From Microcaldota archaeon (GTDB taxonomy: Archaea > Micrarchaeota > Micrarchaeia > Anstonellales > Bilamarchaeaceae): a stretch of DNA of 64,000 nucleotides. Numbering within the stretch: the first letter of the stretch is position 1; each line of letters starts with the position of its first letter. Where the stretch lies: the NCBI GenBank assembly GCA_016932815.1, contig JAFGCC010000002.1, positions 1 to 64,000 of the forward strand, in the 5' to 3' direction. Positions 22,325 to 58,402 of this stretch are shown here, piece after piece. A program made the translations under genes and the position numbers. A model generated the notes under the pieces. That model had not been told where the DNA came from. It made no database searches and saw only the letters and a program-made list of their open reading frames with translations.

Positions 22325-23353
22325 ATGGCCCAGGATGATGGTTCTTGCTGCCCCAAAAAAGAGGGCATTTCTTTTTCCCCGAAGGTTGTTTCCGAATTCT
22401 CAAAAAAGCAATACGGGATTGTGGGGAATCATTCTGCCGTTCAAATCTGCGGGTGGACCAAGAGGTTCCTCCGCGGAAAGGGCGCATGCTACAAAAACAA
22501 GTTTTACGGGGCGGATACGGCTTCGTGTGCGCAGATGAGCCCTTCTGCGGCGTGGTGCTCGCAAAACTGCATATTCTGCTGGAGGCCCATGGAATGGATG
22601 GAATTCAAGCAGATGGATTCTTCTTGTGTTGATTCGCCATGTTCCATCATTGAGGGGGTTGTTGCGGCCAAACGCAAATTAATTAGCGGCCTTGGGGGGG
22701 CTGAAGATGTTAATGAGGAACTCTTTAGGGAGGCTCTTGATTCCTTTCCAAAGCATTGGGCGATAAGTTTAAGCGGGGAGCCTACGCTTTATCCGCGCCT
22801 TCCGGAAATGATTAAGCTGCTAAAAGAACACGGGGAGGTAAAGAGCGTATTCTTGGTTTCCAACGGGCAGCATCCTTCCATGCTGCTTAGGTTAAAGGAA
22901 GAGGGGGCTTTGCCCACGCAGCTCTACATTTCCGTTGACGCTGCGGAGCCGGAAACTTTTTCCAAGGTGAACGTGCCCGTTTTTTCGGATGGGTGGGAGA
23001 GGCTTGGGAAAACCTTGTCTGTGCTAAACGATTTGAAATGCAGGAGGGTTTTGCGCTTTACCGTGATTAAAGGGCTCAACGATTTAGAGTGGATGCTTCC
23101 GTTGTATGCTAAGATGTTTGAAGATAGCGGGGCGGATTTTATCGAAGTGAAAGCTTACATGTGGCTGGGGTATTCGCGGCGCAGGCTTTCCGGGGAGAAC
23201 ATGCCCACGCACGAGTACGTAAAGGAACTCTGCGGCAAGCTGCTAGGATTCATGGGCAACTATCGCTTTGAGGATGAGGATTCCAATTCGCGGATTGTCC
23301 TGCTCAAGCGCAAAGACAGCGTTTATGAAAACGTGATAAGCAATGTCGGATGA
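22325..23353 (+). CDS. taw1: tRNA wybutosine-synthesis radical SAM enzyme (TYW1/Taw1)
   Basis: QKKYGIVGNHSAVQICGWTKR-type N-terminus; CSQNCIFCWRP radical SAM CX3CX2C. Confidence 0.93.
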   Translation: MAQDDGSCCPKKEGISFSPKVVSEFSKKQYGIVGNHSAVQICGWTKRFLRGKGACYKNKFYGADTASCAQMSPSAAWCSQNCIFCWRPMEWMEFKQMDSSCVDSPCSIIEGVVAAKRKLISGLGGAEDVNEELFREALDSFPKHWAISLSGEPTLYPRLPEMIKLLKEHGEVKSVFLVSNGQHPSMLLRLKEEGALPTQLYISVDAAEPETFSKVNVPVFSDGWERLGKTLSVLNDLKCRRVLRFTVIKGLNDLEWMLPLYAKMFEDSGADFIEVKAYMWLGYSRRRLSGENMPTHEYVKELCGKLLGFMGNYRFEDEDSNSRIVLLKRKDSVYENVISNVG

Positions 23354-23471: not shown

Positions 23472-23885
23472 ATGGAATGCAAGACAATCCATGCCCATCC
23501 CAAATGCGAGCCTCCCCGCAATAAGCAGCTGCCTGCTGTCAACTGGGGCAAGCTGATACTAGCTGCAGGGGGTGTGAGCGCGCTCGTTAGCGGGGCGTTC
23601 CTGTTTGGGTATTCTTCCTCCCAATCCACCGAGGTAAAATATACTTCGGGCGCCCAGGAGCCGGCAAAGCCCTGCATATGCACGCAGGAGGATACTCCCG
23701 CGGAGCGGAGGGATAAGCTTCGCGGGGACGTGCGCAAGCTAAGGGAACTCCGAAGTACCGTGGAGAGGGCGATGCTGGAGCTTGAAATCCTCTCTGCGGA
23801 CATCAGGGGGAAGCTGGATGCGCTTGAAGCTGGGGAAGTTGATGATTCCCTTGAGGGGGAGAAATCTCCTGCGGATACTAATTAG
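23472..23885 (+). CDS. Array gene A: single-TM coiled-coil protein (no Cys tail)
   Basis: Basic N-term, TM LILAAGGVSALVSGAFLFGY, coiled-coil C-term; TATA cttataag ~28 nt upstream of the ATG. Confidence 0.7.
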   Translation: MECKTIHAHPKCEPPRNKQLPAVNWGKLILAAGGVSALVSGAFLFGYSSSQSTEVKYTSGAQEPAKPCICTQEDTPAERRDKLRGDVRKLRELRSTVERAMLELEILSADIRGKLDALEAGEVDDSLEGEKSPADTN

Positions 23886-23899
23886 CTGGGTTTTAGGCG

Positions 23900-24325
23900 G
23901 TGGGCACTTTGCGGAAAATTGAGGTTAAGGGAAAACTTGCAGACACCGTTCATCCATTGCGGAGAATCCAGGTGTGGAAGCCTGCACCAGAATCCATTAT
24001 GGTTGTTCAAAAGGCCCCGGTTCGCAGGCCCCCAAAATGGAAGAATGCCCTGCTAGTTTGCGCCATGTCCGCCTTCGTTGTGGCGGAGGGGTATTTCGTA
24101 TTCAGCGACCTCAAGAGGCGCGTGGATGAGATACGTGCGGAAATCGGTTGTGAGGGAGATGGGCTCAAGCGGGATAGCAAGAGCCTCAGGGCACAGGTTG
24201 AGAGGCTAATGGAGAATTCCAATCGCATCGCCCTGGAGCAGGAAGCGATTTGGAGGGAGCTTGAGAGGCGCTACGGCGGGGATGCGGGGCTTGTGCGCTG
24301 CCCGGAAGGCGAAGAGTGCAGGTAG
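23900..24325 (+). CDS. Array gene B: single-TM coiled-coil protein with C-terminal VRCPEGEECR
   Basis: GTG start; TM ALLVCAMSAFVVAEGYFVF; Cys tail. Confidence 0.72.
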   Translation: MGTLRKIEVKGKLADTVHPLRRIQVWKPAPESIMVVQKAPVRRPPKWKNALLVCAMSAFVVAEGYFVFSDLKRRVDEIRAEIGCEGDGLKRDSKSLRAQVERLMENSNRIALEQEAIWRELERRYGGDAGLVRCPEGEECR

Positions 24326-24335
24326 CTGGATTTGC

Positions 24336-24371
24336 TTTTTAAACTTTCCTTTACACTAATTATAACTTATG
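24336..24371 (+). promoter_or_regulatory. Leaderless-type promoter of array unit 2
   Basis: TTTTTAAACTTTCCTTTACACTAATTATAACTTATG, paralogous to 27238-27274 and 28363-28397. Confidence 0.65.
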
Positions 24372-24387
24372 AATAGTAAGGGCCTTC

Positions 24388-24885
24388 ATGTTACGGGGGG
24401 TGGAAGCAGGAATCGGGGAAACTGCGCCAGTACCATCAGGGGGGGGTGCTAAAAAGCCAGGGGCACGCTGGGGAAGGCGGATATTTACTGCAACCCTCAT
24501 AGCATATGCTGCCGTTGTTTGCAGCCCCTTGGGTGAGCGGGGAACGGCTACGGGGAATCCGGGCAAGCTTGGGGGCGGGGCAGTTGAAAGCCGAAAACCC
24601 CCAAAAGATATCGGAAAAGAGCTATCTAAAATACGAAGCGGGATTTCCGAACTGCAGGAAATGCAGGGGGAGATTCTAGAGGGCCAGGCATTGATGATAG
24701 ATGATATACGGGAGATGTCAGAGAACCGGGAGAGGAACCGAGGGGAAATGGAACGGGAACTCAACGAACTAATGGAAAGCCGCACCAGGCAGATGAGGGC
24801 ACTGGATGCAATCGAATGGGAATTGGGCAGGCGGGAAGGGAAATTGCCCATTTTGCGCTGTGGTGATGGAGGAGAATGCAAATGA
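24388..24885 (+). CDS. Array gene C: single-TM coiled-coil protein with C-terminal LRCGDGGECK
   Basis: ARWGRRIFTATLIAYAAVVC TM; heptad-rich domain; Cys tail; start uncertain (see finding on out-of-frame ATG at 24369). Confidence 0.68.
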   Translation: MLRGVEAGIGETAPVPSGGGAKKPGARWGRRIFTATLIAYAAVVCSPLGERGTATGNPGKLGGGAVESRKPPKDIGKELSKIRSGISELQEMQGEILEGQALMIDDIREMSENRERNRGEMERELNELMESRTRQMRALDAIEWELGRREGKLPILRCGDGGECK

Positions 24886-25526
24886 TTAGGCAGATGCACC
24901 GGAATTTTAAGTGCGTTATCCCTTCACCCAAACGCAATTTCGGCAGGGGGGCAAATGCTGGGTGGAATGTGCAGGGAAGGATGCTTGCGAAAGTTGAAAC
25001 CGCCAAGCTTCCGCTGCCGAAAATCCGGGGGCGCAAACCCCGGGCGGAATCCGTAACCAAGGCGGAGAAGGAAACCCGGCAGATGGACCGGAAATTGAAA
25101 CTCCAGATCCAGCTGATTGTTTGCGGCACTTGCGCAACGATAATTGGAATATGTGCGGGGGCATTTTATTTCATGAGCAGGGAAATGCTCGCCCTAAACT
25201 CGGACATAGAAAGGCTCGCACAGGCTGTAGGGCCCATGCAGGAGGGCCTAGATGAGATTGACGGAATGGCAGAAGATTTGGAACGCATAGAAAACGACCT
25301 TGAGGCCATGAGCGAAAATTTGAGAGGGCTTGGTGGAATAGAAAAGGACCTTGAATATGGAAGGGCGGAGCAGGGGCTTATCTGGAAGGCGATTATGCTG
25401 GATGCGGAGGGGAAGCTGGGGCCTGCGGAAAAGGCGGAACTCGAGGCGGAGCGGAGAGAGCTTAAGAGGCGCTATGAGAGCCGCAACCGGATTGTCCGCT
25501 GCCCGGAAGGAGGCGAATGCAAATGA
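24882..25526 (+). CDS. Array gene D: single-TM coiled-coil protein with C-terminal VRCPEGGECK
   Basis: ATGA overlap with gene C; MIRQMHRNFKCVIPSPKRNFG N-term; TM IQLIVCGTCATIIGICAGAFYF; Cys tail. Confidence 0.78.
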   Translation: MIRQMHRNFKCVIPSPKRNFGRGANAGWNVQGRMLAKVETAKLPLPKIRGRKPRAESVTKAEKETRQMDRKLKLQIQLIVCGTCATIIGICAGAFYFMSREMLALNSDIERLAQAVGPMQEGLDEIDGMAEDLERIENDLEAMSENLRGLGGIEKDLEYGRAEQGLIWKAIMLDAEGKLGPAEKAELEAERRELKRRYESRNRIVRCPEGGECK

Positions 25527-26158
25527 TTAGGCAGATGCACAGGATTCTGGATAATGGGAAACACACTATTAGGCCCAAGCGGGGCTTTGGCAATAGCGGC
25601 AACTTATTGCGCAACAGGCAGGTTCTGGAAGAAGGTGCTGCCGCGCTTCGCAGGCAGAAGGGGAGTGTCCCCCTGCCTCTCCCAACTGGGGAGGGTGCCC
25701 TCTACAAAGCAGCCATGCACGTTGCGGAAAAATGGAAATCCGATAAGCCTTTCCGCAAAAAGGTAATCCTTGCTGCCATCATAGTTGCGCTTGCAGCAGG
25801 AGAAGTGCATGCGTGCAGCACGTATGCGCAGAATTACTACGAGAAGGTGCAGATGCAGGAGGCGGCGCGGGCGGAGCGGAGGAGATACATCCTAAAGCAA
25901 CTCGCTGAAATGGAAGAGAGGATTGACCGATTAGTTGAAAAGCGGGCGGATGCCCTGGAGCAGCAGGTGGAGCAACAGGAAGAAACGATAAAGAAAGTTA
26001 TTGAGGGGCAGCAGCGCGACAGGGAGAACTTCCGCATCATAAGAAGGGAACTCAGGCTCATTCAGGAGCACATGGTAAGGCAGGGGCATACGTTTGATGG
26101 CGGGCTGGTTGAGGAAGAGCCTATTGTGCGCTGCGAAGATGGGGGAGAATGCAAATGA
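25523..26158 (+). CDS. Array gene E: single-TM coiled-coil protein with C-terminal VRCEDGGECK
   Basis: ATGA overlap; MIRQMHRILDN..RPKRGFG N-term; TM KVILAAIIVALAAGEVHAC; Cys tail. Confidence 0.77.
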   Translation: MIRQMHRILDNGKHTIRPKRGFGNSGNLLRNRQVLEEGAAALRRQKGSVPLPLPTGEGALYKAAMHVAEKWKSDKPFRKKVILAAIIVALAAGEVHACSTYAQNYYEKVQMQEAARAERRRYILKQLAEMEERIDRLVEKRADALEQQVEQQEETIKKVIEGQQRDRENFRIIRRELRLIQEHMVRQGHTFDGGLVEEEPIVRCEDGGECK

Positions 26159-26664
26159 TTCGGCAGCGGCACCGGAATTTGCAGCGCGTTGTTCCTGCAC
26201 CTAAGCGGAACTTTGGGAAGAAGAATAATGATGCGTGGAAGGTGCAAAACAGGATGCTCACGGAAGTGGGAACCCGGGGATGCCCCATGCGGAAAACCGA
26301 AATCCCAAAAGAAAGGCCCCTCTATGGGATGGTTGCGCGGGCTGCGGAAAGAAAGAGGCCGCAGATTGCACTTGCAGGGTGCCTGCTCCTTGCGGGAGTG
26401 CTTACTGCGGCAGTTGCATGCTTCGCGTACGTTTGTTATAAAAAAATCGAAGCGCGGGACAGGGCGCTGGAGCAGAAGAGCGAGGAGAGATTCGGGGGGA
26501 TAGAATCGAGGGCGAACCAGGACTTCAACCGGCTTGTTGAAACGCTCCAGAAGCTGGATGTTGGGGGTCTTGACAAGAAGCTCAGGAAGCTGGAAAAGGC
26601 GGAGTTCGGGGAAGAATGGAAACCGCCCATTGTCCGCTGCCCGGAGGGGGAAGAATGCAAATGA
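26155..26664 (+). CDS. Array gene F: single-TM coiled-coil protein with C-terminal VRCPEGEECK
   Basis: ATGA overlap; MIRQRHRNLQRVVPAPKRNFGKK N-term; TM IALAGCLLLAGVLTAAVACFAYV; Cys tail. Confidence 0.78.
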   Translation: MIRQRHRNLQRVVPAPKRNFGKKNNDAWKVQNRMLTEVGTRGCPMRKTEIPKERPLYGMVARAAERKRPQIALAGCLLLAGVLTAAVACFAYVCYKKIEARDRALEQKSEERFGGIESRANQDFNRLVETLQKLDVGGLDKKLRKLEKAEFGEEWKPPIVRCPEGEECK

Positions 26665-27227
26665 GGAAGCAGATGCACCGCAATTTACAGCGCGTTGTCC
26701 CTTTACCCAAGCGGAACTTTGGAAAGAAAGCGGATGATGCTTGGAGAGTTCATGGCAGGCTGCCCTCAAATGTTGAAACTGCGGGCTGCCCCCTGCGGAG
26801 AATTCCAATTAAGAAAGAGGGGCCCCTGCATACTGCCACGGTTAACGCTGGGGGTGAGGGGAAACCAAGAGCATCCCTGCTAAAGCAACTGCTGTTGGCG
26901 GGGGTAATTGGTGCGGCAATCGGGTATGGATATTACAAGCTTACTGGGGACATCGATGCGAGAAACGAGGCACGGACGCAGGAACTCATGCGGAAACTAG
27001 ACGAGTTTGAAGCCGAACTAGCCGGGCCGGAAGGAAGCATCGCCAGGAGGTTTGAAGAAATAGAGCAGCGGCAGTATGAGAGGGCGATAATGATAGAGGA
27101 CCTGAAGGAAAACCTCGCACAACAGATGCAGGGCCTCCTAGAAAAGATTGATGAGGTTGAGAGGGTAAGGGGCGGGGGCAAGGCGAAGGAGATTGTCCGC
27201 TGCCCGGAAGGGGGGGAATGCAAATAG
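26661..27227 (+). CDS. Array gene G: single-TM coiled-coil protein with C-terminal VRCPEGGECK
   Basis: ATGA overlap; MRKQMHRNLQRVVPLPKRNFGKK N-term; TM LLKQLLLAGVIGAAIGYGYY; Cys tail ending at TAG with no overlapping downstream gene. Confidence 0.77.
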   Translation: MRKQMHRNLQRVVPLPKRNFGKKADDAWRVHGRLPSNVETAGCPLRRIPIKKEGPLHTATVNAGGEGKPRASLLKQLLLAGVIGAAIGYGYYKLTGDIDARNEARTQELMRKLDEFEAELAGPEGSIARRFEEIEQRQYERAIMIEDLKENLAQQMQGLLEKIDEVERVRGGGKAKEIVRCPEGGECK

Positions 27228-27237
27228 CCGGATTTTC

Positions 27238-27274
27238 TTTTTTAAACCTTTTCATACACTAAATACGACTTATG
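27238..27274 (+). promoter_or_regulatory. Leaderless-type promoter of array unit 3
   Basis: TTTTTTAAACCTTTTCATACACTAAATACGACTTATG. Confidence 0.65.
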
Positions 27275-27706
27275 GAGAAAACCGCTCCCCCCAAACGGAG
27301 TTCCAATGCGCCGGTTCCAGACGCCATAGACATGGCCAGGCTTGAGAAGGCCGTAGAACGGGCAATCCGGGAGAGGTTCGCAAAGGCAGAGCGTGAGAAG
27401 CCGCGGGCAAGGTGGGGCGTTAGGCTCCTCGTTGCGGGGGCGCTTGCTGGCGGAATCGGGCTGGCTGCGTGGAAACTGGATAACCTGGAAACCAAGGTTG
27501 AGAAAATTTCCGATGAAAGTGCCAGGATGAGAGCGAGAGTAGACCAGACTGAGAAAAACGTCAGCGAATTGGCAGAGACGATGTCCGAAATCCTTGCTAG
27601 GATGGACGGGCTGGTTGAAGGCATTCAAAAAATTGCGGAGGAGGTGGGGTACGAAAGGGAGCAGGAATCCCTTATTCGCTGCCCGGAAGGGGGGGAATGC
27701 AAATGA
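27272..27706 (+). CDS. Array gene H: single-TM coiled-coil protein with C-terminal IRCPEGGECK
   Basis: ARWGVRLLVAGALAGGIGLAAWKL TM; strong heptads; Cys tail. Confidence 0.78.
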   Translation: MEKTAPPKRSSNAPVPDAIDMARLEKAVERAIRERFAKAEREKPRARWGVRLLVAGALAGGIGLAAWKLDNLETKVEKISDESARMRARVDQTEKNVSELAETMSEILARMDGLVEGIQKIAEEVGYEREQESLIRCPEGGECK

Positions 27707-28359
27707 AGAAAAGGCCGCCGTACCTGAAGCTCGCTTATTCTAGGCCGAAGGAGTTGGAGGTCCAAGAGCGCAGGAGCCCGTGGGAGGGGAACGCCTCCGC
27801 CCCGAAGCATCTGGAAGCGGTGCCCCCCAGCCCGCCCGCGGGGTTTAAGGCCAAATCCTCCTGGGGAAAGAGGCTGATGGTTGCGGGAATCTTCGTGTCA
27901 TTTACGCTCTTCTGCAGGCAGCCGGGAGAGGATAAAAAGCCCCGGGGAATTGGAAGAAGGGGCTCTTCGGAAGTTAGCGAAATCGACAAATCCAGCACGG
28001 ATATCCGGGAGGCATCCGGAGACATCCGCAAGGCTACCCAGGAGATAGAAGAATCCAACCGGGAGTTCATAAAATACATGGAACGGCAAAGCCGGGAGTT
28101 TTCGAAATTCATGGAGGAGAAAAACAGGGAGATTGAGGAATCGGGGAAAGGGTTAGACGCGCAACTAGAGGCGCTGAAGGCGGTAAACAGGCGCCTTGAG
28201 AGGAGCGTGAGGGGGCTCTCCGGGGAATCGAAAAAGCTCAATGAAGGCGCGGATGGCGTGCTAAAGAAGACAGAGAATGTCCAGGGGCAGCAGAGAAAAA
28301 TCCTAAGGCGGCTGCGCAGGATGGAAAACCAGCGCGGAGCGGAAAAAGGGGCTCAATAA
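27703..28359 (+). CDS. Array gene I: single-TM coiled-coil protein (no Cys tail)
   Basis: ATGA overlap with H; SSWGKRLMVAGIFVSFTLFC TM; long helical domain with repeated SREFxKxMExxxRE. Confidence 0.72.
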   Translation: MKKRPPYLKLAYSRPKELEVQERRSPWEGNASAPKHLEAVPPSPPAGFKAKSSWGKRLMVAGIFVSFTLFCRQPGEDKKPRGIGRRGSSEVSEIDKSSTDIREASGDIRKATQEIEESNREFIKYMERQSREFSKFMEEKNREIEESGKGLDAQLEALKAVNRRLERSVRGLSGESKKLNEGADGVLKKTENVQGQQRKILRRLRRMENQRGAEKGAQ

Positions 28360-28362
28360 GGG

Positions 28363-28397
28363 TTTTTAACCTTTCTCCCACTAATTATAACCATATG
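28363..28397 (+). promoter_or_regulatory. Leaderless-type promoter of array unit 4
   Basis: TTTTTAACCTTTCTCCCACTAATTATAACCATATG; shares CACTAATTATAAC with 24336-24371. Confidence 0.62.
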
Positions 28398-28907
28398 AGG
28401 ATGCTCAGGCAACTCCCTGCGGAAAAAAGCGGCAAGCCCAATAAACCATGGAAGGTGAATCCATGGAAACCAAGCGAGAAAGCCAAGGACCGCATGCTAA
28501 TAGCAGGGCTGGCAATAGTATTTACCGTGGGCCCGGCATCGATAGTGTATAATCTCTCTAGGATATCCAATGCAAATGGCGGGCCTGCTGAATCGGGCGC
28601 AAAAGAAGAAGCATACGTGCCCCCAAAAAGAGAAGAGGGGAACTCCCGGGAAACGCTGCAGGGAATCCTGGAAGCAAGGCGCGCGATAAGCAGGAGGGGG
28701 AGGGAACTTGATTTGATAGACTCCATGCCTGCGGGAGAGGAAAAGAACGCAGCCATAAAGAAGTTCTTATGGGGGATGAACGAAGGCTGCGAAGAAAGCG
28801 CAATGGGGGAAATGAGCGACTCAATCTACAGGCTGGAAATGATGATAGAAGATATCAGGGCGAAGCAGGAAGAAGGATGCGGGTGCACAAACGAACCTAA
28901 GAAGTGA
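28395..28907 (+). CDS. Array gene J: single-TM protein with variant C-terminus EEGCGCTNEPKK
   Basis: KAKDRMLIAGLAIVFTVGPASIVYNL TM; coiled-coil region; leaderless promoter. Confidence 0.7.
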   Translation: MRMLRQLPAEKSGKPNKPWKVNPWKPSEKAKDRMLIAGLAIVFTVGPASIVYNLSRISNANGGPAESGAKEEAYVPPKREEGNSRETLQGILEARRAISRRGRELDLIDSMPAGEEKNAAIKKFLWGMNEGCEESAMGEMSDSIYRLEMMIEDIRAKQEEGCGCTNEPKK

Positions 28908-29973
28908 CCTCATCTAGCCTTCCGGTTTTTTCGGCTTCCTTTATCTCCATTGCAACGCGCCTCCCGAAACTTATTGGCTCGCGGTACAAATAATACGAAT
29001 AGGGAGTAAAACGCGTTCCGGGGGAACCGGGCATCCTAAATGACACATCGAATACGACGAACCGTTCCTTGCCGTCTTTCTCCTCTATTGCGCCCTGGAG
29101 CGCAAAAGGCCCAATTAGGCCCTGCGGGTAGAACTCCTTAACAGTTTCCACAAAGCGCTCTCCTGCTTCTATTCCCTTTTGCAGGAGCGATTCGCGCATC
29201 GTGCAGGATATGTGCCCGGCCTCTATTGTAGTGAAGCGGCGGTATTTTAGGACTTCCGACTGCTGGGGGGCGGGGAGGCGGAGCAGGCCGTCTATGTTGG
29301 TCTGCCTGCGCGTGTCTATTCCCAAGAGTTCAAGCTCCCCGCTCAAAGGCGAATAGAAGAAGTTGAAGTTGAACTGCGCGCCGAGGATGAATTCCTCTAT
29401 GCGCGCGTCTGCCAGGTCTTCTACCGCGATTGTGCCTTCGGAAATTAGCTGCTGGCTTTTTTCCTCAAACTCAGCAGGGCTTGCGGCAAAGAAGAATGCG
29501 CGCTCGTATGAGCGCTTGGCCTCCTGCACCTTCACTAAGGAGAGGACGTCTATTTCCTCCGGCTTGAACGTGCGTGCTATGTTGATTTTCGCGTTCTCAA
29601 GCAGGTCGTACTGGTTGTTTTCCGCGGTGCGCTCTTCTGCGCGCAGGAGGTGCTTGTTCCCGAAAATGGGGACTTTGAACTTGTTTTCTATATTGTCGTA
29701 TCCGACGTAAACCGAGAACGAGCGGTTGGGGATGAAGACCGAATCGGAGAGCTTCTCCTGGGTTTCATCCGATATTATGTCCGCAAATGAATCCAGGAGC
29801 AGGACGTCGTCAACTACGCCCATCCCCCTGCCGTTTCTGGTGCGGGACCTAAAGTGCTTTGAATATGTTACGTCCCTGCCTTTTTGGCACACTACCATCG
29901 ACTTGTATCCTTCTGCCTTTGCACCTTCGGAAACATCCAGCGCGGAGTGGCTTCCCAATGTTGAAATGAACAT
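28897..29973 (-). CDS. purP: PurP: formate-dependent AICAR ligase (FAICAR synthetase, ATP-grasp)
   Basis: STLGSHSALDVSEGAKAEGYKSMVVCQKGRDV; IEEFILGAQFNFNFFYSPLSGELELLGIDTRRQTNIDGLLRLPA; GPFALQ. Confidence 0.9.
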   Translation of the reverse strand: MFISTLGSHSALDVSEGAKAEGYKSMVVCQKGRDVTYSKHFRSRTRNGRGMGVVDDVLLLDSFADIISDETQEKLSDSVFIPNRSFSVYVGYDNIENKFKVPIFGNKHLLRAEERTAENNQYDLLENAKINIARTFKPEEIDVLSLVKVQEAKRSYERAFFFAASPAEFEEKSQQLISEGTIAVEDLADARIEEFILGAQFNFNFFYSPLSGELELLGIDTRRQTNIDGLLRLPAPQQSEVLKYRRFTTIEAGHISCTMRESLLQKGIEAGERFVETVKEFYPQGLIGPFALQGAIEEKDGKERFVVFDVSFRMPGSPGTRFTPYSYYLYREPISFGRRVAMEIKEAEKTGRLDEVTS

Positions 29974-30082
29974 GTGCTCGCCCTTTTTTTGGGTTAATGT
30001 ATAGCAGTAGTAATAAAAGAATGGTGGACAGCCTCCTGCCAAAAGATGAACGATGCGAACCGGATTAATGGGTTGCAAACAC

Positions 30083-34645: not shown

Positions 34646-36589
34646 ATGCAGAGTGTGGCAAATCAGAAATCGGGAGAGAGGATAACTAGATACAAGGATG
34701 TTGATTACATGGTTGAAGAATACGGCGCTGAAACAATCAAGGTATTAGAGGGGCTGGAAGGAGTCCGCAAAAGGCCCGCGATGTACATCGGGGACACTTC
34801 AAAAAGGGGGCTGCATCACCTGGTATACGAAGTGGTGGACAACAGCATAGACGAGGCGCTTGCAGGCTACTGCAAGAACGTTGAGGTCGTGCTCACAAAG
34901 GGCGGCTCGGTAATGGTGCGCGATGACGGGAGGGGAATTCCCGTGGGAAAGCACTCCAAAACCGGCAAGTCCGCGCTGGAACTTGTAACCACAGTCCTGC
35001 ATGCCGGAGGAAAATTCGAGAAGAAAGCATACCAGGTAAGCGGCGGGCTGCACGGAGTCGGCCTCTCAGTCGTAAATGCGCTTAGCGAATGGATGGAAGT
35101 GGAAGTGCACCTTGGGGGAAAGAAGCACCAGCAGAAATACGAGAGGGGGAAAGCGGTTACGCCCGTGGAAGTGCTCGGGGACACCGATTATCGTGGAACG
35201 ATAGTGAGGTTCAAGCCGGACATGACCATATTCACCGGGGAATTGGACTTCAGCTACCTGCGCGAGAGGCTGCGCGAACTCGCGTTCTTAAACGCCGGGA
35301 TACGCATAGTCCTAGCAGATGAGGGCTCGGGGCAGAAGGAAGAGCTGCGCTACGAAGGCGGAATCAAGAGCTTCGTAGAATACATGAACCGCTCAAGAAA
35401 GCCCCTGCACGCCCCCTTTGGCTACGGGAAGAAGGTGGATGACGTTGATGTGGAATACTCTTTACAGTACACCGAGAACTTCACCCCTGTTGTGCACTCT
35501 TTTGTCAACAACATAAACACAGTTGAGGGGGGAACGCACCTTGTGGGATTCAAGACCGCACTTACCCGTGCAATAAACGAATACATGAAGGACAACAAGG
35601 CGCTAAAAGAGAGGAAAATCAGCGGGGACGACGTGTTGGAGGGGCTTACCGCAATAGTGAGCGTAAAGGTCATGGAACCCCAGTTTGAAGGGCAGACCAA
35701 GACCAAATTGGGGAACGCGGAAGTCCGCGGGATTACTTCCAGCGTCGTCTATGAGAGCTTAATGCAGTTCCTAAACGAGAACCCCGCAGAGGCAAAGAGG
35801 ATTGGGGAGAAGATGCTAAACGCCATGCGTGCGCGCGAGGCGGCGCAGAAGGCGAAGGAGCTAATTCGGAGAAAGAGCGTTTTTGAGAGCAGCGTGCTCC
35901 CCGGGAAGCTTGCGGACTGCATAGAGCGCAACCCGGCCAATGCGGAACTCTTCATAGTGGAGGGAGATTCCGCAGGCGGCAGCGGAAAGCAGGGGAGAGA
36001 CAGGCAAACCCAGGCAATCCTGCCTTTGAGGGGGAAAATCCTCAATGTGGAAAAAGCGCAAATCAACAGGGTGCTGCGGAGCGAAGAAATCAAGGCGCTA
36101 ATTACCAGCCTGGGGACCGGGTTCGGAGAGGACTTTGACCTTGAGAAATTGCGCTACCACAAAATCGTAATCATGACGGATGCGGACGTGGATGGAAGCC
36201 ACATCCGCACCTTGCTCCTCACCCTATTCTACAGGCACTTTAGGAGCATAATAGAAGGAGGGTATCTCTACATTGCCCAGCCGCCGCTATACCAGGTTAG
36301 GAAGGGCAGGGCGGCAGAATACGCCTACGATGATGCGCAGCTTGGGGAATTGATGGGCAAATTCGGGGAGAACGCAACCATACAGAGGTACAAGGGGCTT
36401 GGGGAAATGAACCCGGGGCAGCTCTGGGACACCACGCTCAACCCTGAGAACCGGACGCTAAAGAGGGTTAGCGTGCAGGATGCGATGAGGGCGGACGAGC
36501 TATTTACCACCCTCATGGGAGACGCGGTTGAGCCGCGCAGGAAATTCATAGAAGACCACGCGCGCGAGGTGGAGAACCTGGACATATAG
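34646..36589 (+). CDS. gyrB: DNA gyrase subunit B
   Basis: [19 protein letters not shown]...[59 protein letters not shown]. Confidence 0.97.
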
Positions 36590-36598
36590 GTGGTACTC

Positions 36599-39133
36599 AT
36601 GGGAATCGAGAACATTGCAATTGAAGATGACATGAAAAAATCCTACATGGATTATGCGATGAGCGTCATAGTGAGCAGGGCGCTGCCGGATGTGCGAGAC
36701 GGGCTAAAGCCTGTCCACAGGAGAATCCTGTATTCTATGTACGAACTTGGGAACACGCACAGCAAGGCGTACAAGAAGAGTGCGAGAATCGTCGGGGAAG
36801 TCCTGGGAAAATACCACCCTCACGGAGACGCGGCGATTTACGATTCTCTCGTCCGGATGGCGCAGCCATTTAGCCTGCGCAACATGCTAGTAGACGGGCA
36901 GGGAAACTTCGGAAGCATAGACGGGGATTCCGCTGCGGCAATGAGGTACACAGAGTGCCGCATGAGGGGAATAGCCGAAGAGATGATCCGGGACATAGAA
37001 AAGGAAACCGTGGAATGGTCGCCCAACTTTGATGGAACGCTAAAGGAGCCAATCGTGCTGCCCTCTAGAGTCCCGAACCTGCTAATAAACGGCTCATCCG
37101 GAATCGCGGTGGGAATGGCAACCAACATACCCCCGCACAACCTAATTGAGGTTGCGGATGCGATTATCGCAGCGATAGAGGGCGCGGATGAGGAGGCACT
37201 CCTTGCCATTGTGCAGGGGCCGGACTTCCCAACGGGTGGATACATAGTCGGGCGCAGGGGGATACTTTCTGCGTACAAGAGCGGAAGGGGCATAATAAGG
37301 GTGCGCGCAAGGGCGCAAACCAAGGAGAGGGAAATCATTGTTACCGAAATCCCCTACCAGGTCAACAAGACCAGCCTGATACAGCAGATAGTAGAATGCG
37401 TAAAGGACAAGAAAATAGAAGGGATAAGCGGCCTGCACGACCGCTCGGACAAAGACGGGCTGAATGTTAATATAGAGCTAAAGAGGGGCGAGGACCCAGA
37501 AATCGTGCTGCGCCAGCTTTATGCGCACACGGACCTGGAAAAAAGCTTTGGGATAATCAACCTGGCGCTGGTTGACGGGAAGCCGCGGCAGCTAACATTA
37601 TATGAGATGATTCGGGAATTCATAGAGTTCCGCAAGGAAATCATAACGCGCAGGAGCCGCTTTGAGCTTGAGAAGGCAAAAGCGAGGCTCCACATCCTAG
37701 AGGGCCTTGTGATTGCTCTTGAGAACATAGACGCAATCGTGAAGATGGTGAAGGCGGCATCCAACGCGGAGTCTGCGCGCGCGGCACTATCTGAAACCTA
37801 CGGGCTAAGCGAGAAGCAGGCCCTTGCAATCTTGGACATGAAGCTCCAGAAATTGACCAACATGGAGCGCGATGGGATAGAAGGGGAGAAGCGCGAGAGG
37901 GAAGGCGAAATCCGCGGGTTATTGGAGCTCCTGGGTGATGAGAGGAAAATCCTGGATGTCATAAAGGCCGAAACCGAAGAGGTCAAGGCGAAATTCGGGG
38001 ACGCTAGGAAGACCGAAATCCTAGAAGACGAGGAGGATGGCGACATCGAGTCCCTTATTCCCGACGAAAAGGTCGTGGTCACTTTCTCCAAGAGGGGATA
38101 CATCAAGAGGGTGCCGCTGGAAGAATACAAGAAGCAGAGGAGAGGGGGCCTGGGAGTGATTGCGGCGGAAACCGTGGAGGACGACTTCATAGTGGACGTT
38201 ATCGTTACGACCAACCACAAGTACATGCTCTTCTTTACCGACGCAGGAAGGGTGCACTGGCTAAAAACGTACCGGATACCAGAGAGCGGAAGGTACTCAA
38301 AGGGCAAGCCAATCGTGAACCTGCTTGAACTTGACAATGAGAACGTCACCGCGTGGGTTTCCGTAGATGAATTCGGGGACGATGAGCACCTGGTCATGGC
38401 GACTGCGAACGGGACTATTACCAAGACGATGCTGTCCGCTTTCAGCAGGCCCAGGAAGGGAGGCATAATAGCCATTACCCTGCGCGAAGGGGACTCCCTA
38501 ATAGACGTTAAGAAGACGGATGGAGAGCAGAGCCTCCTGCTTGGGACACTTGATGGGCACTCTGTGCGCTTCAACGAAAAGGACGTGCGCCAGACCGGAA
38601 GGGGCTCAATGGGGGTTAGGGGAATCCGCCTCCGCAAGGGAGATGCGGTCGTGGGCCTTGCAGTATGCGACAAGCCCCATATCCTGACTATCACCGAAAA
38701 CGGGTACGGAAAGCGCACCGAAGTGGGCGAATACCGCATCCAGGCAAGGGGCGGCCAGGGGATAATCAACATCAAGGCCAGCGGAAGGAACGGGAAAGTC
38801 GTGGGGATTAAATCCACCGACGACTATGATGAGATAATAGTAGTCAGTTCCCGCGGCAGGATAGTCCGCATGGGCGCTTTGGGAATCCCGGTAATAGGGC
38901 GCAACACCATGGGCGTGCGCATAGCAAAGCTCAAGGAAGGCGAGAAGGTGTCCTCCTTTACCGTGATGAAGCCCGAGGAGAAGGAGGATTCCGGCGGAGA
39001 AGAAGATGCGCAGGAGCCCTTGGGGCGCGGCGGAGGCGGAGAAGAGGGGGGAGCTTCGGGCATTTCCGGGGAAGGCGATGTCGGCGAAGCAGAAGGCAAC
39101 GAAGGGGAGGAATATGGGGGGGAAGACGCCTGA
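36599..39133 (+). CDS. gyrA: DNA gyrase subunit A with acidic/Gly-rich C-terminal tail
   Basis: [53 protein letters not shown]; GyrA-box QRRGGLG. Confidence 0.97.
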
Positions 39134-54106: not shown

Positions 54107-54198
54107 GCTGCTTGGTATATTGAACAACTAATATAAAAGGATTGGAAGGCGGGGGAGTGGGGAGGGATTTAATAGTTTTCTTGGCCAAAATCCCCTTC

Positions 54199-55113
54199 AT
54201 GAAATACGCTCTTTCAGTTTTCATGGCGCTGGCACTCCTGCTTGCAGGCTGCCCGCAGGAAGGCTCCCCTGATGGGGGGATCTGGGGAGGCGCTGGCTCT
54301 TGCAGTGACAGCGATGGCGGGATATACGAATTTACCAGGGGGGTTGCCACAGTTGAGGATGGTGCGGGAACCGACAAGTGCCTGGGCCAGGGCGGAAGCG
54401 TCCTTGAATATTATTGTGAGGATGGGGAGCTTGCGAGCACGGACGTTGAGTGCCCCCTGGGCTACGTTTGTGACGATGGGGCATGCATAGTAACGCCCTG
54501 CTTTGACACCGAAGAGGATGCGGATCCTGGCGTTGCCGGGACCGTGCAATATTCGGGCGCGCAGTACGCGGACTCCTGCATAGATGATACTTGGGTAAGG
54601 GAATATTCGTGCACTAAAGAGGGGGTGTCCGAAGAGGCAATTGAGTGCGAAGAAGATGAGAAGTGCGAGAGGGGAGAATGCATGCCGATTCTGCCCTGCA
54701 TAGACAGCGACAACGGAAAGGACGTTTATTCTGCCGGGGTAGCCAGCGTGGGGGCGGCATCGTATTCTGACATCTGCGTAAGCTACAACGTGGTCTTTGA
54801 GTATTACTGCGAAGATGGGGGCGTGCGGGATGTGCAAATCATGTGCCCGGACGGGGAAGAATGCTCCGGGGGGGTTTGCATCGAGGCTGGGGACCGCGAA
54901 TGCACGGACACCGACGATGGCAAGAGCAGGTACCAGAGGGGGACCGTTTCCTATTGGGTTGGCGGGGAGGAACTCTCCGAAACCGACAAGTGCTATGACC
55001 AGGATTCGGTTTTGGAAGTGTGGTGCACAGAAGACGGCTCGGTCGGGTTTGGGATTCTGGAGTGCTACGATTCCGACTGGTGCGAGGATGGGGCGTGCAC
55101 AAGTGGAAGTTAG
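54199..55113 (+). CDS. Cys-rich repeat lipoprotein (four tandem ~65-aa repeats)
   Basis: Lipobox LLAGC; four repeats C(S/T/I)D(S/T)D(D/N)GK...DxC...YxCxxxG...EC...C..G.C. Confidence 0.78.
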   Translation: MKYALSVFMALALLLAGCPQEGSPDGGIWGGAGSCSDSDGGIYEFTRGVATVEDGAGTDKCLGQGGSVLEYYCEDGELASTDVECPLGYVCDDGACIVTPCFDTEEDADPGVAGTVQYSGAQYADSCIDDTWVREYSCTKEGVSEEAIECEEDEKCERGECMPILPCIDSDNGKDVYSAGVASVGAASYSDICVSYNVVFEYYCEDGGVRDVQIMCPDGEECSGGVCIEAGDRECTDTDDGKSRYQRGTVSYWVGGEELSETDKCYDQDSVLEVWCTEDGSVGFGILECYDSDWCEDGACTSGS

Positions 55114-56112: not shown

Positions 56113-56676
56113 ATGATGAGAATCGGAGAAAAGATAGCGGATATGGGAATGGAAGTTTTCCATGAAGGGGAAATAAAGAAGGTAAAGCTCTCGGATTACT
56201 CTGGAAAGTGGTTGGTCCTGGTATTCTACCCTGCGGATTTCACTTTCGTGTGCCCAACCGAGCTTGAGGACATGGCGAAGCATTATGCGCAGTTTAAGGA
56301 AGCGGGCGCGGAGGTAATTAGCATAAGCACCGACACCGTGTTCGTGCACAAGGCGTGGAAGGACAATTCGGATGCCATAAAGAAGATTGAGTACCCGATG
56401 GGCGCAGACCCCACGGGCAAAATCTGCAGGGAGTTTGGGACGTACATAGAAGAAGAGGGGCTCTCCCTGAGGGGAAGCTTCATAATAGACCCGGACGGAG
56501 TGCTTAAAGCGTTTGAGGTCCATGACAACAGCATAGGCAGGAGCGCAAAGGAGCTCCTGCGGAAACTGCGGGCTGCGGATTTTGTGCGAAAAAGCGACGG
56601 AATCGTGTGCCCGGCCAACTGGGAACCCGGGGCGGAAACGCTCAAGCCCGGGCTGGACCTGGTGGGAAAGATATAG
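56113..56676 (+). CDS. Peroxiredoxin (AhpC/Prx family)
   Basis: [49 protein letters not shown]. Confidence 0.95.
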
Positions 56677-56684
56677 GTGAGGAC

Positions 56685-57062
56685 ATGACCAAGAGAGAAG
56701 AGATATACAAATGCAACGTATGCGGGAACATCGTGGAAATGGTGCATCCTGGCGCGGGAGAGCTTGTCTGCTGCGGGCAGCCAATGGAGCACAAGCCGGA
56801 GAAGGAGACTGATGAGGGAAACGAGAAGCACGTCCCGATAATCAAGAGGACCGAAACCGGCGTGAAGGTAAAGGTGGGCTCGGTTCCGCACCCTATGGAG
56901 GAGAACCACTACATTGAGTGGATTGAAATCATAGCGGACGGCAAAGTGTGCCGCAAGTACCTAAAACCGGGAGAGGCTCCGGAAGCGGAATTCTGCACGG
57001 ATGCAAAAGAGGTTAGCGCACGCGAATACTGCAATGTGCACGGGCTCTGGAAATCCGCCTGA
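56685..57062 (+). CDS. Desulfoferrodoxin-type superoxide reductase
   Basis: [65 protein letters not shown]. Confidence 0.94.
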
Positions 57063-57106: not shown

Positions 57107-58402
57107 TCACTTGGGCTTGTAGCGTCCCCACTTGCCCAGTGCTTCCCTCAATTCTTCGTTATTTTTAGCCTTCTCTTTTAGGGAGACTCCTTCCATCTTC
57201 GCATCTATTGCCTGCATTACTGCCATTGCGCCTGCGCGGGTGCCCTTGGGATGTCCGTGGATTCCTCCGCTAACTAGGAGTACCATGTCGTTGCCGTAGA
57301 TGTCCATGACATCCGGGACCAGGCCGGGGTGGAGGCCTCCTGAGGATGCTGGGAAAACGGATTTTATGTTTCCCCACTCCTGCTCTAGTATGAGGCCTTT
57401 TTTCGCCTTGGTTTTCTTCTCGCGCAGAACGTCCGCTATTGCCTGCACTTCGGGCTTTGTGCCAACGAGCTTGCCCACCGCAGTTCCGGTGTGGATGTTG
57501 TTTACTCCAAGCATGCGCATCGTCTTTGCGAGAAACTGCATGGTAAGGCCGTGCTTGGGGTTGCGGTCAAAAGCCGCGTGCATCGCCCTGTGCGCGTGTA
57601 TTGCAAGGCCCAAATCGCCAAGGTAGTCGCGCATCGTCTGGACTGCCGAGTTGCCGGTTACAACGACGTCTATCATCACATAATCCCAGCCGTGGTCTGC
57701 GACCATCTCCGCGCGCCTCATCATCTCTCCTACTTCTGCTGTGATGTTGAAGAATGCGGATTTTTTCTCGCCCGTGAGGGCTTCCGCCTTGTCGCGGAGC
57801 TTCGTCATCCTCTTTAGGCGGTCCTCGAAGCGGTTGAATGAGAGGGATGTGAGGTTTTCGTCATCCTTTACGAAATCGAATCCGCCCATCCAGGTTTCGA
57901 ACGCTATTTTGGAGTGCTCGGCTGCGCTGAATCCTATTTTGGGCTTTACCACTGCCCCTGTTAGGGGGCGCTTTTTTACTCCCATCCTCTTTCTTATCCC
58001 CTCCATCCCGAATTGGGGGCCCTTGAAGGACTTGAGGAGGGCGGGCGGAATCGACGCGTCTATTAGCCTCAGGTTCTTGAGCGCCTTCATGCCGAAGATG
58101 TTGCCGGCTATCCCGCTTAGGAGCTGGCAGAGGTTGCCCTTTTCCCAGAGGCCAATCGGGTATGCGACTTTTAGGTAGTTGCCATCCATCTCAAAGGCGG
58201 TCGCCTCCAGGCCCTTCATTCTCGGAGGAAGGCTGGTGAGGGTGGTCCAGGTGCCAGTGGAACTCTCCGATGCAATCCTGCCTGCAGCCTCCTTCTTGCT
58301 CATCCCCGCTGCGGGCTCGAAATAAAAGAGAGCTATAACGTCGTCTTTTGCAGGCGAATATTTAAAGTCCACGAATTTGTCATACCAATCGATTTTTGCC
58401 AT
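57107..58402 (-). CDS. rbcL: RuBisCO large subunit, form III-like
   Basis: ESSTGTWTT; GAVVKPKIG; GGFDFVKDDENLTS; HAHRAMHAAF; NIHTGT; VGKLVG; SSGGLHPG; GHPKGTRAGA. Confidence 0.93.
   Translation of the reverse strand: MAKIDWYDKFVDFKYSPAKDDVIALFYFEPAAGMSKKEAAGRIASESSTGTWTTLTSLPPRMKGLEATAFEMDGNYLKVAYPIGLWEKGNLCQLLSGIAGNIFGMKALKNLRLIDASIPPALLKSFKGPQFGMEGIRKRMGVKKRPLTGAVVKPKIGFSAAEHSKIAFETWMGGFDFVKDDENLTSLSFNRFEDRLKRMTKLRDKAEALTGEKKSAFFNITAEVGEMMRRAEMVADHGWDYVMIDVVVTGNSAVQTMRDYLGDLGLAIHAHRAMHAAFDRNPKHGLTMQFLAKTMRMLGVNNIHTGTAVGKLVGTKPEVQAIADVLREKKTKAKKGLILEQEWGNIKSVFPASSGGLHPGLVPDVMDIYGNDMVLLVSGGIHGHPKGTRAGAMAVMQAIDAKMEGVSLKEKAKNNEELREALGKWGRYKPK

Follow-up and report, generated by a model that had tools for sequence, protein, structure and literature searches.

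The 64,000-nucleotide stretch analysed here (the window; positions 1 to 64,000 of contig JAFGCC010000002.1, forward strand) belongs to a 1.25 Mb, 91.5% complete archaeal genome of the Micrarchaeota (assembly GCA_016932815.1). Between taw1 (22325-23353) and the convergent purP (28897-29976), in surroundings that also hold ribosomal protein and gyrase genes, ten consecutive open reading frames (ORFs), A to J, occupy positions 23472-28907 of the plus strand, and seven of them, B to H, end in a shared C-terminal peptide, [IL][VLI]RC-x-[ED]-G-x-E-C-[KR], which we call the tail. An earlier model-made annotation of the letters (the original prediction) had described ten same-strand genes running from taw1 to purP, as the ORF positions bear out, and had quoted seven tail sequences, all of them exactly. 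When the ORFs were scored against a codon usage learned from the window's housekeeping genes, the assigned frame came out best for all ten.

Gene A (23472-23885) encodes a tailless single-transmembrane (single-TM) protein of 137 residues with cysteine in its N-terminus and a CIC motif after the transmembrane (TM) segment. Gene B (23900-24325; GTG start, 141 residues) ends in VRCPEGEECR and is not overlapped by a downstream gene. Genes C (24388-24885; 165 residues, LRCGDGGECK), D (24876-25526, start 24876 or 24882; VRCPEGGECK), E (25517-26158, start 25517 or 25523; VRCEDGGECK) and F (26149-26664, start 26149 or 26155; VRCPEGEECK) each overlap the start of the next gene, while gene G (26655-27227, start 26655 or 26661; VRCPEGGECK) ends at a TAG stop, with the next start 45 nt on. 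Gene H (27272-27706; 144 residues, IRCPEGGECK) overlaps the start of gene I (27697-28359, start 27697 or 27703; 218-220 residues), which has no tail, a weak hydrophobic segment and strong helical periodicity, and gene J (28395-28907; 170 residues), convergent with purP, ends in EEGCGCTNEPKK, a CXC motif and not the tail. TATA-like boxes, possibly promoter elements, lie on the plus strand upstream of C (CTTTTTAAAC, 24335-24344; repeated upstream of H), H (CTTTTTTAAAC, 27237-27247) and J (TTTTTAAC, 28363-28370). The apparent start of C (24388) falls 17 nt after an ATG matching the start of H, and that ATG opens a 27-codon frame (24371-24454) before C and out of frame with it.

The tail is specific to the array and is constrained as a peptide. 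Its pattern occurs seven times in the genome, every time in the array and on the same strand, and a reversed-pattern control occurs nowhere. Over the last nine residues of B to H, 152 of 189 pairwise comparisons are identities, whereas random 9-mers taken from these proteins never gave more than 39 in 20,000 draws; the constancy spans 9-11 residues and collapses directly upstream of position -11. Changes in the pooled tail codons are mostly synonymous (proportion of synonymous differences, pS, 0.52; of nonsynonymous differences, pN, 0.11), with third codon positions varying, while the codons for R, C, G, E and C are fixed at their first two positions. The tail is thus under protein-level constraint. 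The most telling copy is that of B (24299-24325), which is synonymously diverged and uncoupled. That of G (27201-27227) likewise lacks an overlapping start, but its last nine sense codons are nucleotide-identical to those of H (27680-27706), synonymous sites included, while the flanks diverge, which suggests a recent exchange between these copies; because G and H may have exchanged sequence, B is the strongest single case for constraint on the peptide.

In five of the seven tailed genes the same codons also carry a second signal. The tail codons of C, D, E, F and H hold GGAGG, GGGGG or GGAG, a Shine-Dalgarno-like motif of the kind also found ahead of many housekeeping genes in the window, followed by ATGCAAATGA, in which the start of the next gene overlaps the stop (an ATGA overlap) and to which the TGC codon of the second tail cysteine belongs. 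Since the tail codons carry both elements, C-D-E-F-G and H-I look translationally coupled by termination-reinitiation. A tail constrained at the protein level, as the pS/pN values and codon positions show, supports the earlier reading, which had missed the overlapping motif and start codon in C, D, E, F and H. Termination-reinitiation has been demonstrated in archaea (PMC6728339), and in Haloferax volcanii 45.2% of close gene pairs (-8 to +10 nt) encode heteromeric complexes, as opposed to 5.6% of distant pairs (PMC10666635).

All ten proteins are predicted to have a basic N-terminus (net charge +3 to +15), one hydrophobic segment and a charged helical region; this per-gene architecture had been proposed before and holds, except that the hydrophobic segment, judged by mean Kyte-Doolittle hydropathy, is weak in I (1.19) and of modest strength in C, G and H (1.50-1.56). 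A topology with the N-terminus inside the cell (N-in) is favoured because lysine and arginine are commoner in the 20 residues before the segment than after it in nine of the ten genes. Charged residues make up 35-44% of the ectodomains, and helical periodicity is significant (p<=0.01) in seven of the ten. An AlphaFold2 model of G, to be given moderate weight because its alignment was shallow, is disordered over residues 1-69, forms a single helix over 70-171 (block predicted local distance difference test, pLDDT, about 75-92) and ends in a disordered tail, and the PDB profile matches of the array proteins are generic coiled coils (syntaxin, myosin, spectrin). Charge, periodicity, the model of G and the PDB profiles are all consistent with the N-in single pass and helical, coiled-coil-like ectodomain of the original prediction, as is its statement that no named family fits: no array protein scored above a curated Pfam or NCBIfam cut-off, and the sub-threshold matches were mostly to coiled coils.

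Homology among the ten is narrower than had been supposed. When A to J were compared with tails removed and scores were set against shuffled sequences, D, E, F and G proved related: F and G score 95 bits, D scores about 50 with F and with G, and E about 16-17 with D and with F. The C-I score (21 bits) and those of B or H with D, F or G (about 11-13 bits) came close to the shuffled background, and A and J did not rise above it. Homology beyond the tail is therefore firm for D-E-F-G only, borderline for C-I and weak for B and H, and the claim of a ten-paralogue system fails on A and J, which have no demonstrable homology. Genes D to G also have N-terminal DNA in common, with pN below pS among D, F and G, and the B-C and G-H intergenic segments share repeated DNA; in each copy a TATA-like CTTTTTAAAC box precedes an ATG by about 30 nt. 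The repeated DNA and the D-G homology argue that the array grew at least partly by duplication. Integron-like gene cassettes with a shared 3' recombination site were considered and rejected, as the seven-way conservation reaches no further than the stop codon and tracks the codon phase, no inverted repeat fits, and no integrase was recognised among the ORFs of the window.

The breadth implied by the original prediction is not supported, the tail being confined to one species among those compared. Across 301 Micrarchaeota genomes a looser pattern gave one match beyond the array (reversed controls gave two), in the congener G004, which we rejected as lying out of frame inside an unrelated gene; no real gene end outside the array carries the tail. 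Sequence relatives of G were absent from 40 near genomes, a seven-protein profile found none in 84 genomes of the order (the remaining matches being weak coiled-coil ones), viral contigs and phages held no relatives of the array proteins, and an Rfam search gave no match. Literature searches, with most subscription papers outside their reach, returned no description of such an array.

The same site is occupied differently in sister species. In congeners G001 to G005 the taw1-purP gap measures 793, 327, 846, 73 and 1484 bp. It holds two single-TM genes in G005, none in G004 (a fragmented assembly) and one in each of the others, and none of these genes has the tail; a tailless single-TM gene also adjoins purP in G059, of another genus. 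The genes of G001, G003 and G005 form a family of their own (W-x-RHPL). Proteins of this kind in G001, G003, G005 and G059 resemble those of the array in their site beside purP, with which their genes too are convergent (and beside taw1 within the genus), in a basic N-terminus, in one TM segment and in a charged helical ectodomain, but differ in having no tail and no detectable sequence homology over the ectodomain. The W-x-RHPL profile found no match in the array's genome, its comparison with the array profile aligned about 20 columns at the TM segment with a non-significant probability of 1.7%, and the G001 ectodomain is predicted to form several helices and not one rod; orthology to the array is accordingly unsupported. 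A fold search with the sister-species protein gave no significant match. The original prediction had named tailless relatives as evidence against itself, and this objection applies in part: positional counterparts in congeners lack the tail, although these are not demonstrably homologous. Between purP and cca, G003, G004 and G005 carry further small membrane genes with basic N-termini, of which some have a single TM segment and others about three. Because congeners carry zero to two membrane genes at the site, none of them detectably homologous to the array, it is best read as a slot whose small membrane proteins vary between species. The surroundings of purP as a whole have the look of such a slot for orphan membrane proteins, and the array is a species-level expansion there and not part of a widespread system.

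The explanation that we tentatively prefer, while rating it somewhat short of probable, is a species-level tandem expansion of co-translated N-in coiled-coil stalks that form hetero-oligomers and are locked by disulfides between the tails at their tip. The proteins would be type II single-pass proteins with a disordered, basic cytoplasmic N-terminus, whose TM helix would continue directly as a coiled-coil stalk outside the cytoplasm. In the tailed genes this stalk has 73-118 residues, which would measure about 11-17 nm were it helical throughout, and in B to H the tip farthest from the membrane would bear the RC-x-[ED]-G-x-E-C-[KR] tail as a flexible C-terminus. Translation of C-G and H-I by termination-reinitiation through the ATGA overlaps would yield matched amounts, which would favour assembly of a hetero-oligomeric bundle, and the tails would meet at its tip, where each would either close a CX5C ring or be joined to neighbouring tails. 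A predicted lipoprotein encoded elsewhere in the window (54142-55110, plus strand; LLLAGC; no Pfam match) contains four C-x5-C-x4-C repeats such as MCPDGEECSGGVC, which fits with a tail lying outside the cytoplasm. These share the C-P-x-G-x-x-C spacing and composition of the tail (MCPDGEEC and RCPEGEEC), but have three cysteines per repeat inside a long protein, whereas the tail has two, at the C-terminus.

Several observations weigh against this explanation. Genes A, I and J have no tail, so that not every gene of the set requires one; helical periodicity is not significant in F, A or J; and the model of G was built from 7 sequences, with a predicted template modelling score (pTM) of 0.25. 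Disulfide formation is not assured either, because VKOR, DsbA-type Thioredoxin_4 and DsbD_TM were not detected in the 91.5% complete genome. This last result favours an alternative in which the tails remain reduced and coordinate metal, for instance through four thiolates from two CX5C tails, or act as a redox-sensitive clasp, and a superoxide-reductase-like protein recognised by eye at 56607-57062 would fit a low-oxygen habitat. We nonetheless think it unlikely: CX5C is, to our knowledge, not a common metal-binding spacing, and the cysteine-rich repeats of the lipoprotein suggest some extracytoplasmic disulfide chemistry. An equally doubtful proposal is that the tail is mainly a translational-coupling cassette (GGA-GGx-GAA-TGC-AAA-TGA, a Shine-Dalgarno-like motif with the start in ATGCAAATGA) copied with each duplication, its amino acids a by-product. 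The motif and overlap in five tails, the TGC codon within the overlapping start and the N-terminal DNA shared by D to G all speak for it, but coupling alone does not account for the tail, because B keeps RCPEGEEC with GGCGAAGAG and TAG, having neither the motif nor an overlap, G keeps the tail with no overlapping gene, the first cysteine and the arginine, both invariant, precede the motif, and most changes are synonymous, with variation concentrated at third positions.

Two further readings were weighed. The tail might be a recognition or anchoring signal, read by a protease, a sortase-like enzyme or an S-layer, through which a variable stalk is positioned on the cell surface; a constant end on variable bodies, predicted to be disordered in G and so exposed, is what such a signal would look like. 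Yet the tail and the TM anchor are at opposite ends of the protein, no enzyme for such processing was identified, and we know of no C-terminal sorting signal of this form, which makes this quite unlikely. The array could instead consist of fast-turnover orphan membrane genes of little function, duplicating at a tolerant convergent intergenic site, as the zero to two other single-TM genes at the site in sister species, the further ones across purP and the lack of sequence relatives beyond the species would allow. We consider this improbable, since all ten frames are intact and coding-like in composition, pN lies below pS among D, F and G, and the tail is conserved in its amino acids. Few surface proteins are known from DPANN archaea, which are believed to live in attachment to other archaea. 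The stalks of the preferred explanation could amount to an undescribed archaeal surface apparatus, in which stoichiometric, co-translated variable rods carry a thiol tail clasp at the tip that doubles as a coupling element and have diversified in one Micrarchaeota species for host or virus contact; in this extended form we regard the proposal as rather unlikely.

Elsewhere in the window, adjacent gyrB and gyrA (34646-39133, plus strand) and a RuBisCO-like large subunit, probably of form III (57107-58402, minus strand), were recognised by eye, the former in an archaeal and the latter in a Micrarchaeota genome.

As a compact array of putative rods with one invariant tail, the locus lends itself to expression and structural studies, and it offers a clear case of a short DNA segment that apparently serves both a peptide motif and coupling to the gene that follows, a point that synonymous recoding could address directly. 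Among known systems, Rz-like i-spanins (PHROG 739 and 1152) share with the array the predicted order of an N-in single TM segment followed by an extracytoplasmic coiled coil, and 2 of the 10 proteins match them weakly (best 3.5e-05); unlike i-spanins, the array has no lysis cassette, phage genes or partner lipoprotein (o-spanin), and it sits among ribosomal and housekeeping genes of an archaeon. Coupled overlapping gene pairs, which often encode heteromeric complexes (PMC6728339, PMC10666635), show the same ATGA overlap and intragenic Shine-Dalgarno-like motif, but the coupling element of the array, where coupling is predicted, additionally encodes a conserved peptide. The array seems to be an undescribed orphan set of ordinary type II coiled-coil design, whose unusual trait is a constant terminal peptide that apparently also serves coupling.

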